A stretch of DNA of 64,000 nucleotides from Paracoccaceae bacterium (GTDB taxonomy: Bacteria > Pseudomonadota > Alphaproteobacteria > Rhodobacterales > Rhodobacteraceae): assembly GCA_014872875.1 (NCBI GenBank), contig WKFI01000011.1:186001-250000 (forward strand), written 5' to 3'. This document shows, one piece after another, positions 31,784 through 40,841 of this stretch. The first letter of the stretch is position 1. The number at the start of each line of letters is the position of its first letter. A program made the translations under genes and the position numbers. The notes beneath the pieces were generated by a model. That model did not search any database. It saw only the letters and a list, made by a program, of their open reading frames with translations, and was not told the origin of the DNA.

Positions 31784-31944
31784 ACTGCCTCTCCTCCTGC
31801 GCGCCGTTTTGGCCCCGCGACGAAAGTTGACGCAAGGGCAGTGCGGCGTCCTCGATTGTGTTTCAAATTATCTGGTTTATTCAACCAGTCTCAACCTTTA
31901 TCAAGGTAAACAATGGGAAGAATTCGGGGTGCTTCGTTTCCGGT

Positions 31945-33522
31945 ATGGCGAAAATTGCGTATATTCTTCTCTGTCACAAGGATCCTGAGGCCATTGTGCA
32001 GCAGGCCGAGCGGCTGACGGCAGCAGGCGACTACATGTCGATTCATTTCGACGCACGCGCCAAACCAGAAGCTTACAAGCTCATCCGCGATGCGCTGGCC
32101 GACAACCCCAACGTGACCTTTTCCCGCAAACGTATCAAATGCGGCTGGGGGGAATGGTCACTGGTCCAGGCAACGCTTTATGCCGTAGAAGCCGCCGCCG
32201 AAGAGTTTCCCCGCGCCACCCATTTCTACATGCTGTCGGGCGATTGCATGGCAATCAAGACGGCCGAATATGCGCACCAGTTCCTCGACAACAACGATTT
32301 CGATTTCATCGAAAGCTTCGACTTCTTCGAAAGCGACTGGATCAAGACCGGGATCAAAGAAGAACGGCTGATCTATCGCCACTATTTCAACGAACGCACC
32401 CACAAGAAACTGTTCTACACCTCGTTCGAGATGCAGAAGAAATTCGGACTGGCCCGCGAAATTCCTGCCGATATCCAGGTCCAGATCGGCTCGCAATGGT
32501 GGTGCCTGCGGCGACGCACGATCGAATGGATTCTGGACTTCACCCGCACGCGCCGGGATGTGATGCGGTTTTTCGCTACGACCTGGATCCCGGATGAGAC
32601 GTTTTTTCAGACGTTGGTCCGTCACCTGGTTCCGGAAACCGAAATCCAGACCCGGACTCTGACCTTCCTGATGTTCACTGACTATGGAATGCCAGTGAAT
32701 TTCTACAATGATCATTATGATCTGTTGCTGAGTCAGGACTTTCTTTTTGCACGAAAGATCAGTCCTGAGGCGGTCGAATTGAAGGCCCGACTGGGCCGAC
32801 TATACGCTGCTCGTGACATACCTTTCGAAATCTCGAATGAAGGCCGCAGCCTGTTCAAGTTCCTGACCGGGCGCGGCCGCATCGGTCGCCGGTTTTCCAT
32901 GCGTTTCTGGGAAACCGAAAGCTCACTTGGCAGGGAACGTGAATTGATGATCGTTGTCTGCAAGAAATGGCACGTCGCCAAACGCTTGGTCGATCAGATC
33001 CGGCACATGACCAACATTCCTTGCATCGAATATCTCTTCAACGAAGAGGACACTCCCCTGCCCGATCTGGGCGGGATCCAGTCCTCCCTGGAAAAACGCA
33101 CCCGACACCGCCGCGCGCTGATGCGGATGCTCTTCGAATACTATGAAACGGACCGCCTGCTGGTCTGCATGGACAGCGCCAATCTGGATCTGATGCAGGA
33201 CTTCTTCTCCGATCGGTCGGTAACACGGATGCTGCAGATCGAATGCAAGTTCACCGATGAATACCTGATCGGCCACGCCTTGCGTGTTGGCCTGGCCGGG
33301 GACCGTACCCCGCAGGCCACATTGGAGCGTCTGCTGCCCACGATCCGCAATGACATCGTGCATGAATCCGATCGGATCCGCGACGCTGGCTTCCCGCGCA
33401 GCTACCGCATGCACGAAGTAGACAGCCCCGAGGACAATGCACACAAGTTGACCGAGTTCCTGAGCATCCCTTACGATCAGGCACTTCGCATTGCCCAGAC
33501 TGAGTATCTGTTTGCCGACTGA
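31945..33522 (+). CDS. GT14-like beta-1,6-N-acetylglucosaminyltransferase with C-terminal extension (DUF5927-type)
   Basis: MAKIAYILLCHKDPEAIVQQAERLTAAGDYMSIHFDARAK... HFYMLSGDCMAIKTAEYAHQFLDNNDFDFIESF. Confidence 0.82.
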   Translation: MAKIAYILLCHKDPEAIVQQAERLTAAGDYMSIHFDARAKPEAYKLIRDALADNPNVTFSRKRIKCGWGEWSLVQATLYAVEAAAEEFPRATHFYMLSGDCMAIKTAEYAHQFLDNNDFDFIESFDFFESDWIKTGIKEERLIYRHYFNERTHKKLFYTSFEMQKKFGLAREIPADIQVQIGSQWWCLRRRTIEWILDFTRTRRDVMRFFATTWIPDETFFQTLVRHLVPETEIQTRTLTFLMFTDYGMPVNFYNDHYDLLLSQDFLFARKISPEAVELKARLGRLYAARDIPFEISNEGRSLFKFLTGRGRIGRRFSMRFWETESSLGRERELMIVVCKKWHVAKRLVDQIRHMTNIPCIEYLFNEEDTPLPDLGGIQSSLEKRTRHRRALMRMLFEYYETDRLLVCMDSANLDLMQDFFSDRSVTRMLQIECKFTDEYLIGHALRVGLAGDRTPQATLERLLPTIRNDIVHESDRIRDAGFPRSYRMHEVDSPEDNAHKLTEFLSIPYDQALRIAQTEYLFAD

Positions 33523-33795: not shown

Positions 33796-34440
33796 TTATT
33801 TCGACTTCCAGCTGTCCAGCCACCGCCGCAATCTGCCGCGGCGCTCCTCGATCGCGTCGCCAGCCGCATACAGGCTGTCTTCCACATCCTCGATCATGGG
33901 ATCAATGCGCCGCTGCCGGAACCGTCGCCACCGAACGTAGATCGCCCAGACCAGAGCAAAGAACGCTGTCAGGAACAGGATATTGAACCACGGGATCGGG
34001 CTGTAATCCGGGCCATCCACGGCCTTGACCGAAATCGCGTTGGGGAAGATCGACAGGAATTCGTTGCGCCAGCCGTAATGCATCACCGAGACCCACTCAG
34101 GGTTGTCCTTCGATGACACCTTGTCCGCCGCTTCGGTATAAAGATTTGCCGTATCGAACTTGAAATAGAACGGCCAGCCCCAGCCGGTATCTTCGTTGCG
34201 ATACACGATGGGCCGCCCATTGGCGCGCACCGCCTGGATGAATTGCACATCCCGGTTGATCAGGGTTGCCGACTGATCATCGGGCACCGCCCAGAAGATC
34301 CGCGTCCAGTCGTTCAGCTCCTGCCGTTCTTCATATGTGTTGACGATCCGTACCGTGTCATGATGCGGCAGCGCGTAATGCAGCACCGATCCGACAAACG
34401 CCCAGAAGATCAGGATGATCGCCCATTTTACATAGCCCAT
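33796..34440 (-). CDS. DUF1523-family membrane protein
   Basis: MGYVKWAIILIFWAFVGSVLHYALPHHDTVRIVNTYEERQELNDWTRIFWAVPDDQSA; two TM segments. Confidence 0.78.
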   Translation of the reverse strand: MGYVKWAIILIFWAFVGSVLHYALPHHDTVRIVNTYEERQELNDWTRIFWAVPDDQSATLINRDVQFIQAVRANGRPIVYRNEDTGWGWPFYFKFDTANLYTEAADKVSSKDNPEWVSVMHYGWRNEFLSIFPNAISVKAVDGPDYSPIPWFNILFLTAFFALVWAIYVRWRRFRQRRIDPMIEDVEDSLYAAGDAIEERRGRLRRWLDSWKSK

Positions 34441-34452
34441 GCTGTCAGGCCC

Positions 34453-34722
34453 TCACATGTAATTCCGAATGTAAATCAGGGCCACGATCGCAACCCACGG
34501 TACGATATAGACCCCAAGGATAAGTTTGCGGCGAAACGATTGATCATAGCGTTGCAACCCGCGTTCGACAAAGGCCTGCTTGTCGCCCTTCATCGCGTCT
34601 TTCTTTTCCCAATGCGCCTCAAGCTTGCCCTTGCGCACCGACCGGGAATAGAGCGACAGCCCCACATAAGCAATCGTCTGCAACACCAGCAGGACCAGCA
34701 ACAGGCGGAAAAGCGCAATCAT
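34453..34722 (-). CDS. small membrane protein of unknown function
   Basis: MIALFRLLLVLLVLQTIAYVGLSLYSRSVRKGKLEAHWEKKDAMKGDKQAFVERGLQRYDQSFRRKLILGVYIVPW; operon spacing. Confidence 0.7.
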   Translation of the reverse strand: MIALFRLLLVLLVLQTIAYVGLSLYSRSVRKGKLEAHWEKKDAMKGDKQAFVERGLQRYDQSFRRKLILGVYIVPWVAIVALIYIRNYM

Positions 34723-34723
34723 C

Positions 34724-36085
34724 TCAGCGTCTCCTTACCGCGCCCCATGGACCAACGCGGTCGATCAGATCGTCCCGGCGCGCACGCACCCGGGCGGGAT
34801 CGGGTGCCGCGCCGCTCATGTCCAGCTCATGCCCAAACAGTGCCGCGCGCGCCCCTGCCTTGTCTACTGCGTATTCATTGGCCAGGAAATCGGCCGCATA
34901 GGCCTTCTTTTCCTCGGGCCAGCCCCGATAGGCAGTATAGAACAGTTCCTTGTGGCAGATGAACAGTTGCCGGATGTCCAGCGGGCACAGCTCGGCCAGC
35001 AGCATGTTGACCAGATCCCGATCCGGCGTATTCGCCGCGCGCAGAGTATAGAAATAGCCCGGATGATCGGAACTGACCCGGGGCCAGCTGCCCCCGGTTT
35101 CCGCCCAGCGCACCATGTCGGCCAGCAGGTCATATTCGGGAGGCAAATCGCCCGCGTGGCTGCGCGCCAGACGCCGCAGGTCGGACCGCGTCCGCCCGGT
35201 CAGATCGACGCCCTTGCGGGCCAGAGTATCGGCAGTGATGAAGTCCATCTTCTGCCGCAAGATCGCTGCCCCGTCGATGCCACGCGCCTTGACCACGGGT
35301 TCGGCCAGATCGTTATAGTTCAGGAACTTGGCAATCCGGTTCCGTTCGCTCAGGTCAAACACGTATTTGATCGGCAGATCGCCTTCGGGTTTCTCGGCAC
35401 TGGCAATCACGGCCGGGTGATCCACCCCCTGAAACAGGTAGAGCCCACCGAAATGCGCGGTCCAGAAATTGCGCTGCTCGAATGTCTCGTGTTTCAGATG
35501 CACCGGATTGCGGGTCACATCGCCGGTGTCACGCGCGGTTTCGATCATCTCGGCGATCAGCACATCGTCGAACCAACCGTCTTCTTCGGTCTTGAACCGT
35601 TCCACCAGCCGCGCAAGATGATCCGCCTGCCGGATGGTGCCGCTGGTGGTATCGGCCTCGACCCGGACCTGACGAATGTCAAACAGCCGCTGCGGTACAT
35701 CCACCTGAAACACCGAGTTCACCAACTCGCCCGCCACCGCATCCTTGGCCGTCAGCGCAAAAAGCTGCGCTTCATTCGCGGTGATGAACCGCAGCAGAAT
35801 GTCCCGGCTGGTCGAAAACTGAGCATTCAGCAAAGGCGCGCGTTTCTGTTCCGTGCCCAAAAGAACGAACTGCCGATTCACCCCATTGGGGTTCAGATAG
35901 AACGGATCGCCCAGCTCCTCGCCAATCTCGGGCGAAAAACCCGACAGATCGATGTGAAAATCGGTCAGCCCTGTCCGCTTTCCCGCCAAATGCATCAACG
36001 CGCGGTTATACCGGTCGATCAAGGCGGGGCTGGAGATGTGGACGAGATTGCCGAACATCAGGCCGTTTGCAATCAGTCTTCTCAT
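34724..36085 (-). CDS. conserved hypothetical protein (DUF6638-like)
   Basis: Long ORF tightly packed with neighbours; no motif I can name with certainty. Confidence 0.75.
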   Translation of the reverse strand: MRRLIANGLMFGNLVHISSPALIDRYNRALMHLAGKRTGLTDFHIDLSGFSPEIGEELGDPFYLNPNGVNRQFVLLGTEQKRAPLLNAQFSTSRDILLRFITANEAQLFALTAKDAVAGELVNSVFQVDVPQRLFDIRQVRVEADTTSGTIRQADHLARLVERFKTEEDGWFDDVLIAEMIETARDTGDVTRNPVHLKHETFEQRNFWTAHFGGLYLFQGVDHPAVIASAEKPEGDLPIKYVFDLSERNRIAKFLNYNDLAEPVVKARGIDGAAILRQKMDFITADTLARKGVDLTGRTRSDLRRLARSHAGDLPPEYDLLADMVRWAETGGSWPRVSSDHPGYFYTLRAANTPDRDLVNMLLAELCPLDIRQLFICHKELFYTAYRGWPEEKKAYAADFLANEYAVDKAGARAALFGHELDMSGAAPDPARVRARRDDLIDRVGPWGAVRRR

Positions 36086-36255
36086 CCAAACCTCCCGCCC
36101 GGATTCACCCCGGGCCGCGCCCGACCTCCCGCCAAAGGGCGCGTTGACGATGCCATCCGCAATATGCGCGATAGGACTGCTTGGGCATGTGCGCGCAGAC
36201 CACAGCGTCCGTAAACGCCCGCCAGGTCGGGTGCGGCCCTCATCGCGTTAATCAT
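36082..36255 (-). CDS. candidate small translationally coupled ORF (57 aa)
   Basis: ATG overlaps the AAA gene stop (AAGATGATTAA) and its TGA overlaps the next ATG (ATGA). Confidence 0.45.
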   Translation of the reverse strand: MINAMRAAPDLAGVYGRCGLRAHAQAVLSRILRMASSTRPLAGGRARPGVNPGGRFG

Positions 36256-38188
36256 CTTTACCCTCCAGATACCGCTTCTTCGCCTCTTCCTGGCGGCCAA
36301 AGTCGCGCACCATGGTCTCAATCGCGACCTCATCGGATTTGTCGGCATAGCGGAATTCGCTGTCGGCGTAGCGGTTGATTTCCTGGATCACCATGTCCAC
36401 GGTGATCGGCACCCGCAGATCCTCGATCATCGCCCGTTTGGTGTCATAGTCGCGGAACAGGAACAGCTCAGGTTTTTCCATCCACTCATCGGGCAGTTCA
36501 AAATCCATCGCGCGGACTTTCACCGCGTCGGTAATGTTCTTGATCGCGCGACCGGTGAAGCGTTCGTCGGCTTGTTGAATGGCCTTCAGATAGGTGCCCA
36601 TCTTGGCAATCGTATCCAGATCGCCGATCTGGTCCTGCACCCGGTCGAACACGTTCAGCAGCCCGGCCTCCTGCGGTTTGGAATGCGCCTCGAACGATTT
36701 GGCGACAGCCGTCTTGATCTCCTGCGCGGCATAGAGGTCGTGCTGACCCAGCGGGATGTCATGGTTCTTGCCCATCAGCAGGGCCAGAATGTCGATGTAA
36801 TCCTCGCGGGTCTGAGGCCCGTCCACCAAGAACCGTGCGCCAGCCCGCTGGCGCAGGGCGTCATCGACGTTTTCGGGATAGTTCGAAAACATGCCAAAGG
36901 TGCAGTTCCCGCGCACCACGGTATTGGCCCCCGCAAAGCTTTCCATCAGCACGGCGGTGATCTCCAGCTGTCCCGCCGAAGACTGCCGATCACCACGTTT
37001 GCCAGCCAATTGGTCGATATCGTCGATGGTGCCAAAGCCGATCACGCCCGGATCGATGATGGTGTTGATGAACGCCTTGGCGTTCTGGCCCGATTTCCCC
37101 TGATAACTGTCGATGTTTTCCGTCGACAGGTTCTGATAACGGAACGGATAGCCCGCGACCTGACAATAGTCGTTGATCAACCCGGCCATCATCTGGATCA
37201 GTGTGGTCTTGCCCGTGCCCGGTTTGCCGTCGCCCATGAAGGTGAAAATGAACCCGCCCAGTTCCGCAAACGGGTTCAGGCGGCGGTTGAAATCATAGGC
37301 CATCAGCATCTTGGACAGGCGCAGCGCCTGATATTTGGCGATGTGGTTGCCGACCACCTGATGCGGTTTCTTGAAGCTCATGGTCAGCGTGGTGGATTTC
37401 GCCTTGGTCGCCGGTTCAAAGCCGCGGATGGTCAGGTCATCCGCCTCAACCCGCCAGGCTGCCCCGGCAAAGGCCGCCAGCCGCGGAGCGGTTTGGGCGC
37501 GCAGGGCTGCCTTCTCCATCACCTGTTCGGCATAAGCGGCCAGAGTGGCCAGCATCTGTGCCTCCTCCTGCGCATGCAAAGCCAGTTTCTGGTCCAGCTC
37601 CCACAGCAGCCCGTGCAGGGTCAGTTGCGCATTGTCGGTCAGAAGCTCCTCGGCTTCGCCGACCTCGACCTGGGTTTCGCCCAGATGCGGCGCCAGCAGA
37701 AACGCGGTCGCATTGGCCCAGACATGGGCCACGGCCAGCGCCTCGGCGGTCAACAGGTCCGAAAACTCGGTCTTCTTGTCTGCAGGCAAGGCCCCCGCCA
37801 AGTTCGACCGTTTCAGATCGGCCAGGCCCGAGGCATCCGAGAATTGTTCTCCCATCGCCAAGGCAATCGCCAACGCCCTGCGCAAGCCGTGCAGCGCAGT
37901 GGCCTGCAGCGGAGACATCAGCGGGTCGCCCCCATCCGACGCCTCGATCCGGTCGATCAGATGCACGCCTTCGGGCCGCGCGGTCGAGCGCGTCACCAAC
38001 CCCGGTGTCGTGGACCGGAACCGTCGCCGCGTGGCAATACCCGGGCTGCGTTCGGGCGCGCTGGCGGGGGTCTGCGCCTTGGCAATCCGAGGGGTGTGGT
38101 CGAACCCATCCAGTAGTCCATTCGCCGCGTCGTAATGCTTGCGAATATCCTCTTCGCGCAATTCCATCTGGTCGGATGTCAGGCTCAT
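36248..38188 (-). CDS. AAA family ATPase
   Basis: Walker A GKPGTGKTTLIQMMAG; Walker B-like VIGFGTIDDIDQLAGKRG; sensor/arginine region DDALRQRAGARFLVDGP. Confidence 0.9.
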   Translation of the reverse strand: MSLTSDQMELREEDIRKHYDAANGLLDGFDHTPRIAKAQTPASAPERSPGIATRRRFRSTTPGLVTRSTARPEGVHLIDRIEASDGGDPLMSPLQATALHGLRRALAIALAMGEQFSDASGLADLKRSNLAGALPADKKTEFSDLLTAEALAVAHVWANATAFLLAPHLGETQVEVGEAEELLTDNAQLTLHGLLWELDQKLALHAQEEAQMLATLAAYAEQVMEKAALRAQTAPRLAAFAGAAWRVEADDLTIRGFEPATKAKSTTLTMSFKKPHQVVGNHIAKYQALRLSKMLMAYDFNRRLNPFAELGGFIFTFMGDGKPGTGKTTLIQMMAGLINDYCQVAGYPFRYQNLSTENIDSYQGKSGQNAKAFINTIIDPGVIGFGTIDDIDQLAGKRGDRQSSAGQLEITAVLMESFAGANTVVRGNCTFGMFSNYPENVDDALRQRAGARFLVDGPQTREDYIDILALLMGKNHDIPLGQHDLYAAQEIKTAVAKSFEAHSKPQEAGLLNVFDRVQDQIGDLDTIAKMGTYLKAIQQADERFTGRAIKNITDAVKVRAMDFELPDEWMEKPELFLFRDYDTKRAMIEDLRVPITVDMVIQEINRYADSEFRYADKSDEVAIETMVRDFGRQEEAKKRYLEGKDD

Positions 38189-38255
38189 CTTGAAACGCCC
38201 CTACTCTTCATCTCGCTCAAAAACTCCCGCCGGAGGCTTGGTCCGGCAGGACCAA

Positions 38256-39380
38256 TCAATACCGCAACACCTGCCCGCTTTCGCTGACGACGAACTTTCC
38301 CACATCCGCAAATCCCGGAGGGTTCTGTTCGGCCAACACTTGAAACGGGCGTTGTGGCAGGATGATCGACCGACGCGTGCGGGTTGCACCAGTATCGGCA
38401 CCACGGCCGCCAAACGGATCCAACGCGAACACCTCGCGTTCCACAGTGGAAAACCACCCGGAACGCTCTTCGGTGACCCGTTCGCTTTCCAATTCCTCGG
38501 TGGTCCAGGCCAGTGCCCAATCCTGACCCTCGGGGGCCTCCGCCTCGCCCAGCACCCGCCGCAACGGTCCGGTCTGTTCGGTATAGGCCGAGCTGTACAT
38601 CGGCCCCACGTGATAACGCCGCAGCCGTTTCGGGTGCAGATCGTCAAAATCTTCGTCAAAGCCCTTGGCGATGGTCACCAGCTTCAATGCACCCAATGAC
38701 TGCGCCATCAGATGCGCCTGACATTCCGGCCAGCGCCGCTGATCCTTGGGCAGGGCGATCTTGCCGCTGTCCTCCAGCTCGAGCATGTAGATCACCGGCA
38801 GGTTGATCTGGCTGTCGTAGACCGCCCAATGCAGCAAGAACCGCCGCCGGTCGCCATCATTGCCCAGCCATTCGCTGACAGGATCATTGCGGGACCAGAA
38901 CAGGTCGCCTTTCAGCAGCTCCTGATAATAGAGCCGCTGGGACAACGCGAATTGCAGCTTGGTCGGGAAGCTCTGGTCCGAGATGATGGTGCGCACCATC
39001 TGGTCCTTCAGATCCGCCTCGGTCGGCATGTTGTCCAGATGCCGCGCGGCCTGTTGCGCGTCATTGGCCATGGTCATCAGCTCGGCCGCAACGGGAAAGC
39101 CACTGTCGCGCTTGTCCATCGCCAGCGACCCGAAAAACCGCCCCGTTTCGCGCCCGACCAGCAGGTATTTCATACTCAGCGCCCGGAAGGTGTAATTCAA
39201 CGCCGCCAGATAGCCGGTCAGCACCTTCACATCCGATTTGGACAGCGCGCCGTCGGCCTGCATATAGCCCGCCACCCGCGCGAGATGCGTGGTGATCGCC
39301 TCGAACTTGCGGAAATACCGGCGCGAGGCGAAGGTGTCAGTCAGGCCGATGTGATCCGAGGTTGTCTTTTCCGCGACCAT
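38256..39380 (-). CDS. conserved hypothetical protein of AAA-ATPase operon
   Basis: Long ORF, co-directional, 67 bp from AAA gene, 2 bp from next gene. Confidence 0.75.
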   Translation of the reverse strand: MVAEKTTSDHIGLTDTFASRRYFRKFEAITTHLARVAGYMQADGALSKSDVKVLTGYLAALNYTFRALSMKYLLVGRETGRFFGSLAMDKRDSGFPVAAELMTMANDAQQAARHLDNMPTEADLKDQMVRTIISDQSFPTKLQFALSQRLYYQELLKGDLFWSRNDPVSEWLGNDGDRRRFLLHWAVYDSQINLPVIYMLELEDSGKIALPKDQRRWPECQAHLMAQSLGALKLVTIAKGFDEDFDDLHPKRLRRYHVGPMYSSAYTEQTGPLRRVLGEAEAPEGQDWALAWTTEELESERVTEERSGWFSTVEREVFALDPFGGRGADTGATRTRRSIILPQRPFQVLAEQNPPGFADVGKFVVSESGQVLRY

Positions 39381-39382
39381 GT

Positions 39383-39586
39383 TCAGGAACGATCCTGAGG
39401 GTCTTGCTGGCCAGCCCGGGGCCAGGCCTTCTCGAATGCAAATCCGACAAGACCAGCCACGACAGCCGTCACCACGATCCGAACAAGAACGGACGGATCA
39501 AACCCAAGGTTATCCAGAAGCAAACTCACCGCAAAGATCGCCACAAAGAAACACAGGAACTGAACTGCAAAGCGCCGCATCATCAT
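39383..39586 (-). CDS. small two-TM protein
   Basis: MMMRRFAVQFLCFFVAIFAVSLLLDNLGFDPSVLVRIVVTAVVAGLVGFAFEKAWPRAG; 4-bp overlap with upstream gene. Confidence 0.65.
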   Translation of the reverse strand: MMMRRFAVQFLCFFVAIFAVSLLLDNLGFDPSVLVRIVVTAVVAGLVGFAFEKAWPRAGQQDPQDRS

Positions 39587-40665
39587 CCCCCATACAGGTT
39601 CTTGTCATGCTTCTCGACAATCGACTGGAACCGGCGGGCAAAGCGTTCGTCGGCTTTGGCCTTCTTCTCCAGCACGTCGCGGGCAAAGACCATGTGGTCT
39701 TCATGCGCTTCCAGCATGTCGGCCATTTTCTGGTTCGTCGCGGTGCCGATGGCGGCCATGGCGGTCTGGGCTTCCTTGTCCGTCTCAACCCCGATTTCGT
39801 TGATCCGGTGCGCTACGTCCTGTTGCTGCGCCGTTTTCAACGATTTGGTCAGCGCGTCATACAGTACCACGCGCTGCTGCGTGTCCGTCTGCAGTTTGTT
39901 GATCAGCACCATCTGGGTCGCGGCCTGGTTCTGCAGACTGTCCACCCAGGTCTTGCCCTTTTCGATATACCGCTCCAGCGTCTGCGATTTCGCCAGCTTG
40001 ACCTGTTCGTCCTGCACCAGCGCGTTATAGGCGCCGTTCAGATCCGCCAGTTCGGTCTCCAGCTTAGTCCGCGCAGCGGCGTCCTGTTCGACGGCGATCT
40101 TGTTTTCTAACTCGATGATCTTGGGATCCATACTCAGGATCTCGGCCCGGACCTTTTCCAGTTCGGACACGGTGAACTCGCGGTCATCCAAGGTAGAGGT
40201 CAGATTGTCCTGTACCTTTTGGCGCTGTTCCTCCAGCACCGCCAACTGCCCTTCCAGCAGCTTCACGATCACATCCGACTTCGCAATCAGGTCCTGCAAC
40301 TTGTCGTCAATATTGGCGGTTCGCATCCGCTCCTGCCGCATCGAATCCGATTTGCCGCGGGAAAAGATGCCGACAAAGCTTTCCCAGCCGGTTTTCGACC
40401 GCATTTCGTCGAAATCCTTGGAGAACGCGCTGGTCACATCGTCCAGCCCCATGATCAGTTCAGCAATATTCGCGTTCATCACCTCGGTATGGGCGTGAAC
40501 GTCTTCCAGCGTGGCGTTTTCAATGTCGATATCGGCGTTTTCACCTGCTTCAATCTTGGCCCGCGCGCTTTCGATGCGGCTGGTCAATCCTTCGATCTGA
40601 GCCTGCGATTCCCGAACCTTGCGCTGGCTTTCCTCAATCATTGCCTGAAACTGGGCTTCCGCCAT
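39583..40665 (-). CDS. coiled-coil protein of unknown function
   Basis: Heptad-rich throughout (MAEAQFQAMIEESQRKVRESQAQIEGLTSRIESARAKIEAG...); first gene of operon. Confidence 0.8.
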   Translation of the reverse strand: MAEAQFQAMIEESQRKVRESQAQIEGLTSRIESARAKIEAGENADIDIENATLEDVHAHTEVMNANIAELIMGLDDVTSAFSKDFDEMRSKTGWESFVGIFSRGKSDSMRQERMRTANIDDKLQDLIAKSDVIVKLLEGQLAVLEEQRQKVQDNLTSTLDDREFTVSELEKVRAEILSMDPKIIELENKIAVEQDAAARTKLETELADLNGAYNALVQDEQVKLAKSQTLERYIEKGKTWVDSLQNQAATQMVLINKLQTDTQQRVVLYDALTKSLKTAQQQDVAHRINEIGVETDKEAQTAMAAIGTATNQKMADMLEAHEDHMVFARDVLEKKAKADERFARRFQSIVEKHDKNLYGG

Positions 40666-40841
40666 CAATCCCTCCTGTTCCTGTAAATGCCTTACCTGTC
40701 AGATAGGGAATGTTTATCCCTTTTACATCCCCTCAGGCGGCTGAAAACATGAAAAAACAAAACTCGCAAACAGTCTGACAAAGGCCCGCTGGAAAGAAAA
40801 GGGGAATGCGCAGATCCGTGGCGCATGAGGTTGCGGCAGAT

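Follow-up and report, generated by a model that had tools for sequence, protein, structure and literature searches.

What do seven co-directional genes, among them an AAA ATPase, a coiled-coil protein and three small membrane proteins, do together in a Paracoccaceae bacterium? The genes occupy positions 33796-40665, on the minus strand, of a 64,000-nucleotide stretch of contig WKFI01000011.1 (assembly GCA_014872875.1), which we refer to as the window, and are lettered A-B-C-D-E-F-G here in their 5' to 3' order. A first-pass annotation had described them as one compact operon and had suggested a membrane-associated remodelling machine. An open reading frame (ORF) check reproduces the order, strand and sizes of all seven genes, and hydropathy gives two hydrophobic, transmembrane (TM)-like stretches in each of the three small proteins that had been assigned to the membrane (B, F and G). 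The seven are not equal members, however: the conserved unit is a four-gene core, A-C-D-E, while B is a variable passenger and F and G are swapped for a DUF2333 protein in Rhizobiaceae. What stands of the original proposal is therefore an AAA motor, a coiled coil and membrane partners in a conserved unit, and not a seven-gene machine. The module is real and widely conserved, and it is apparently undescribed; its motor is of a known kind, whereas its other parts are new in sequence. No named pathway had been recognised in it, and we likewise found no published function for it in the literature that we searched.

The evidence for the core comes from 110 stretches that we analysed, in which the order A-C-D-E is identical in all 98 complete loci, drawn from Rhodobacteraceae, other alphaproteobacteria including Rhizobiaceae, and one gammaproteobacterium. 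The gene content is ACDEFG in 90 stretches, ACDE in five and ACDEG in three; the remainder are mostly incomplete at contig ends, together with three relatives that have A only and one PspA. Around D, the order A-C-D-E-(F)-G was seen every time in 18 genomes. The flanks of the loci carry many gene families, with any one neighbour common to a minority only, and because these flanking genes differ among loci we attribute the constant order of the core to selection rather than to general synteny.

The core also travels as a unit across large distances. Within the family, 15 of 25 genomes carry D, and a class-wide sample adds two families outside it; a collection with one genome per species yields at least 562 stretches confirmed by tblastn, and the best 80 of these (at least 562) are nearly all from Rhodobacteraceae. 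A profile search of 399 genomes of the phylum finds A in 30, and 26 of these are exactly the carriers of DUF6638, the family of E. E is thus accompanied by A in 26 of 26 cases, DUF6638 without A is found in none of the 399 genomes, and DUF6638 is absent from 14 of 14 control genomes. The other four A-positive genomes are the three A-only relatives (family f174) and the PspA. In annotated Sinorhizobium meliloti the core lies between a thymidine kinase gene and the gene for a DUF2333 membrane protein, with F and G missing, and we take f174 to be Rhizobiaceae because S. meliloti shares its arrangement. A-C-D-E is present on megaplasmids of Vibrio parahaemolyticus and V. vulnificus, where D is 39% identical over 97% of its length and the V. 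parahaemolyticus A, C and E proteins give profile matches of 1e-73 to 1e-87, and a further gammaproteobacterium (G448) carries the full gene set. Gene-neighbourhood conservation thus extends far beyond close relatives. Directly after E in the Vibrio megaplasmid core (L171:9619-18732, L173:7620-16732) is the gene for the transcription-repair coupling factor, mfd. Two records titled Halomonas (L070, L075) encode a D that is 78% identical to that of the window, and represent either recent transfer or mislabelled Rhodobacteraceae genomes.

Outside the core, gene content varies in a defined way. In other genomes, no orthologue of gene B lies between A and C; the slot is empty or contains unrelated small ORFs. 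The gap between D and E (window 36086-36247) is a second variable slot, and the same gap is seen in L017, L021, L022, L025-L028, L030 and L031. Its content is often a small hydrophobic protein of about 110 residues, found in several genomes, and elsewhere unrelated proteins; in L017 the slot has taken up 6 kb of inserted DNA that encodes a long repeat protein and includes a sulfotransferase-like gene, and rhizobia have DUF559 endonuclease-like genes. F is present in 92 loci and G in 95; F was not found in L015, L160 and the Rhizobiaceae loci. G belongs to DUF1523 (PF07509, E = 1.9e-69), as the first-pass annotation had recognised. The genes directly after E encode membrane proteins of differing families, F and DUF1523 here and DUF2333 (PF10095) in Rhizobiaceae, so that the membrane module is interchangeable between lineages.

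D is the motor of the core. It matches the AAA family (PF00004) with E = 2.4e-11 and 44.7 bits, well above the curated cut-off of 21.2, over residues 321-454, and the Walker A and B motifs and the pore loop are kept in 108 orthologues (Table 1). The Walker B motif reads TIDDID in 94 of the 108, and an aspartate occupies the usual position of the catalytic glutamate in every one. After sensor 1 there is an arginine-rich region, in which R446, R448 and R452 are invariant, and the ALRQRA region is kept in 105 of 108 proteins. The closest solved sequences are those of an i-AAA protease, fidgetin-like 1, katanin and Vps4, all of them weak (best E = 1.7e-05). D has no protease domain match and, in Pfam, no MIT match; with that and a similarity to Vps4 of only E = 0.012, it does not classify as a Vps4. 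D would probably work as a hexamer.

Of all proteins of the operon, the coiled-coil protein A shows the strongest conservation, with a mean column identity of 81% compared with 78% for D, and it contains no TM stretch by hydropathy. At the C-terminus, among the last 16 residues, every one of the 105 A proteins from core-bearing loci, Vibrio included, carries the motif [KD]H-x3-4-Y. The three A-only relatives lack this tail, lack the segment SLKTAxQQxxAH, and lie in loci that also lack C, D and E. As tail and segment are lost together with C, D and E, they are the best candidates for contact with these proteins. The A-only relatives are located at the tdk/DUF2333 locus (L163:9213-10286, L164:9108-10181, L165:9422-10495). 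Sequence does not support A as a PspA/IM30 or ESCRT-III protein (ESCRT, endosomal sorting complex required for transport), as in Pfam it matches neither PF04012 nor an ESCRT-III profile. The PspA retrieved by the A profile, from G552, matched at E = 1e-4, a weak coiled-coil similarity. Nor does the operon replace PspA, which occurs independently of it, in four of 15 genomes with D and three of 10 without.

Structure prediction is confident for the two remaining core proteins, and neither finds a counterpart among solved folds. The AlphaFold2 models have a predicted local distance difference test score (pLDDT) of 91.9 and a predicted template modelling score (pTM) of 0.90 for C, and 87.6 and 0.82 for E. 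A Foldseek search of both models against the PDB returns nothing at E<=0.001, and a search of C against viral models likewise returns nothing at this threshold, its best hit (E = 0.003, template modelling score 0.10) being meaningless; searches of PDB sequences with A, C and E gave no match. Neither C nor E thus shows a clear structural match to a characterised system. A signature in C, DLHP...R...GP, is largely invariant as far as Vibrio. E had been described as an unknown protein of 453 residues; its size is right, and the family that was missed is DUF6638 (PF20343), which it matches over residues 10-452 at 1.4e-231. A, B, C and F fall below the cut-off of every Pfam family, and NCBIfam and PADLOC scans of the operon proteins added nothing specific. 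Our literature search turned up no paper that deals with DUF6638 and none that characterises DUF1523, DUF2333 or DUF2852.

Upstream of A is an inverted repeat that is a candidate operator. The palindrome ATGTAAAN5TTTACAT, with at most two of 14 positions mismatched, is found upstream of A in 54 of 107 loci, mostly 51-70 nucleotides before the start codon, and none of the shuffled controls (20 per sequence) match, the loci being related and so not independent; it also forms a conserved block in an alignment of 21 upstream regions. In eight of eight genomes tested, one other locus has the same palindrome as a pair spaced by 58-59 bp. The gene behind the pair is DUF2852 in G000 and G046. An RDD gene is found near the paired sites of G046, as it is at the matching locus of G355. 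G000 has one more site, in front of a nitroreductase/EI24 pair, and the sequence of G355 shows the same layout. With the consensus ATGTRAAN5TTYACAT, these sites (L190:7329-7406, L191:7438-7515, L192:7530-7606, L193:7555-7573) and the one before the operon define an unassigned regulon in Rhodobacteraceae. From the shared sites, a candidate regulator binding the palindrome probably controls DUF2852 and the nitroreductase/EI24 pair as well, and the operon therefore probably has an inducible envelope or stress function. Such sites persist in family genomes that lack D, which would make the operon one optional part of a larger regulon. The site spacings that we take to be those of CRP, PadR and PpsR do not fit. 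A specific role of the operon in stress, tellurite resistance or phage infection is unproven.

From these data we tentatively propose that A-C-D-E is an ATP-driven remodeller, in which D, pulling on the tail of A, would remodel coiled-coil assemblies located at the inner membrane while C and E serve as adaptors. A would build up elongated assemblies of coiled coils, located on the inner membrane or close to it. D would grip the conserved C-terminal tail and thread A through its pore via the YQGKS loop, thereby disassembling or rearranging these assemblies, in keeping with the logic of Vps4, where substrate tails engage the AAA. C and E would be dedicated adaptors or scaffolds that join motor to polymer, and the lineage-specific membrane module would anchor the machine or supply its envelope target. 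In Rhodobacteraceae, the operon would be under the control of a regulator at the palindrome. This proposal draws on the fixed gene order amid differing flanks, the constant pairing of E with A and the presence of the block in Vibrio megaplasmids and a further gammaproteobacterium; on the intact motor residues of D, which among solved proteins comes closest to AAAs that thread or sever; and on A having no TM stretch and a conserved tail that is lost along with C, D and E, the membrane proteins after E, and the palindrome held in common with other genes. We give it somewhat less than even weight because polymerisation, threading and membrane location are steps that we infer. Several points also count against it. 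Polymer formation by A and its docking to D are guesses, and the partner of the conserved tail could be C or E instead of D. As the A-only relatives, three in number, are closely related, loss of the tail may be a single event. The aspartate in the Walker B motif of every D could mean slow hydrolysis or a nucleotide-switch role in place of processive threading. In Vibrio, E is followed by mfd and not by a membrane protein gene, and a linked membrane target is therefore not universal.

The main rival makes D an assembly or activation chaperone in the style of MoxR/RavA-ViaA or CbbQ, which would use ATP to mature or load a membrane complex of F/G or DUF2333; C and E would then be cofactors, and A would be a scaffold. 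Such a role would account for membrane partners that sit directly after E in most alphaproteobacterial lineages and yet differ in family; C and E, having no known fold, could be client-binding, and the Walker B aspartate suggests slow turnover. We nevertheless consider it unlikely, though a serious possibility, since A, conserved above all other proteins of the operon, is unlikely to serve only as a scaffold, the Vibrio core has no linked membrane protein, and the pore loop is strictly conserved, as threading predicts.

Two further explanations are improbable in our view. A could be a distant TelA (PF05816), and the operon a resistance system for toxic anions or antimicrobial peptides. Both proteins are long, cytosolic and coiled-coil, the order of their segments looks alike by eye, and hhalign gave a partial match of 143 columns (E = 0.0007) at a probability of only 27%. 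With a deeper and more diverse A profile this fell to 16%, as expected for generic coiled-coil similarity, and the Pfam TelA family matches none of 19 A proteins, so that membership of A in the family is not supported. The same genome encodes a true TelA elsewhere, which lends the idea some plausibility and at the same time sets TelA apart from A, and we know of no TelA that accompanies C, D and E. Slightly less probable still is an anti-phage or anti-plasmid defence system, for which one could cite the combination of ATPase, coiled coil and membrane proteins, the accessory slots with DUF559 endonuclease-like and Fic genes in rhizobia, and the patchy presence in the family (15 of 25 genomes). 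PADLOC places none of the operon proteins in a known defence system, however: its matches are weak and generic, the best being TRIP13 at 1.8e-05, through the AAA module alone, alongside weak coiled-coil matches. No D homologue was found in phage records and no A homologue in viral contigs, and the core is single-copy and uniform in order, with a palindrome common to housekeeping-type genes, unlike a fast-moving defence island.

The positions of the genes, motifs and candidate signals are collected in Table 1. The junctions had been described as overlapping or 1-2 bp apart, which holds for three of the six (A/B, a 4-bp overlap; B/C, 2 bp; E/F, 1 bp) and not for F/G (12 bp), C/D (67 bp, with a hairpin inside) or D/E (162 bp). 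The hairpin after C (window 38219-38251) includes CCTCCGGCGGGAGTTTTT, a single copy in this window; a near-identical stretch, GCCTCCGGCGGGAGTATTTT, lies upstream of A in another genome (L072), and the two may represent a repeated intergenic element of the family. An RNA family search found none, and matches in a sigma-70 promoter scan were no commoner than in shuffles. The convergent neighbour (window 31858-33522, plus strand) encodes a Core-2/I-branching-type glycosyltransferase fused to DUF5928 by Pfam.

Table 1 Features of the operon and their positions in the window.
Feature	Position	Strand	Remarks
Gene A	39583..40665	-	360-residue coiled-coil protein, core; no Pfam family; orthologues beside the core in 98+ loci and Vibrio
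Gene B	39383..39586	-	67-residue two-TM peptide, accessory; outside the conserved core
Gene C	38256..39380	-	374-residue core protein; fold without known match
Gene D	36248..38188	-	646-residue AAA ATPase: N-terminal region of ~300 residues and AAA module
Gene E	34724..36085	-	453-residue DUF6638 protein, core; fold without known match
Gene F	34453..34722	-	89 residues, two TM-like stretches; lineage-specific membrane partner
Gene G	33796..34440	-	214-residue DUF1523 protein, two TM-like stretches; lineage-specific membrane partner
C-terminal tail of A (residues 345-358)	39592..39633	-	Predicted signal for docking to the AAA or to its adaptors
Walker A region of D (residues 321-329)	37202..37228	-	Pattern in 103/108; K327 and T328 invariant, including Vibrio
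Pore loop 1 of D, YQGKS (residues 362-366)	37091..37105	-	108/108 orthologues, including Vibrio
Walker B of D, TIDDID (residues 387-392)	37013..37030	-	All 108 proteins keep D389, D390 and D392
Candidate operator, 19-mer inverted repeat ATGTAAAAGGGATAAACAT	40710..40728	-	63 nucleotides upstream of the A start codon
Terminator-like or attenuator-like hairpin, C/D gap	38225..38251	-	Followed by a T run; consensus match from a pattern scan only

Compared with known systems, D resembles FtsH/i-AAA, katanin, fidgetin-like 1, Vps4 and TRIP13 in its AAA module, Walker motifs, pore loop and arginine-rich region, and differs from them in its own N-terminal region of ~300 residues, the Walker B aspartate in place of glutamate, and its weak sequence similarity. 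DUF6638, DUF1523 and DUF2333 are the families to which E, G and the rhizobial partner belong, and their names carry no function. Hundreds of sequenced Rhodobacteraceae, many of them marine, have the module, as do rhizobia and Vibrio, yet we did not find its function in the literature searched; as the tail is conserved and the operator is common to other genes, this function is directly testable in laboratory roseobacters and Sinorhizobium. The closest parallel in architecture is with ESCRT-III/Vps4 and with the bacterial PspA/Snf7-AAA pairs for which ATP-dependent membrane remodelling has been proposed (PMC11237479), where, as here, a coiled-coil protein is found with a classical AAA ATPase in an operon with membrane proteins. 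The parts are different, as A is not PspA/Snf7 by Pfam, D has no MIT match, and C and E have no counterpart. It is conceivable, although we regard it as doubtful in this full form, that A-C-D-E is an undescribed bacterial membrane-remodelling machine analogous to ESCRT-III/Vps4 and built from unrelated parts, namely a Walker-B-variant AAA, a new coiled-coil polymer with a tail code, two adaptors of new fold, and membrane modules that vary by lineage. If the module does remodel coiled-coil assemblies at membranes, it would represent an independent bacterial solution to the ESCRT problem.

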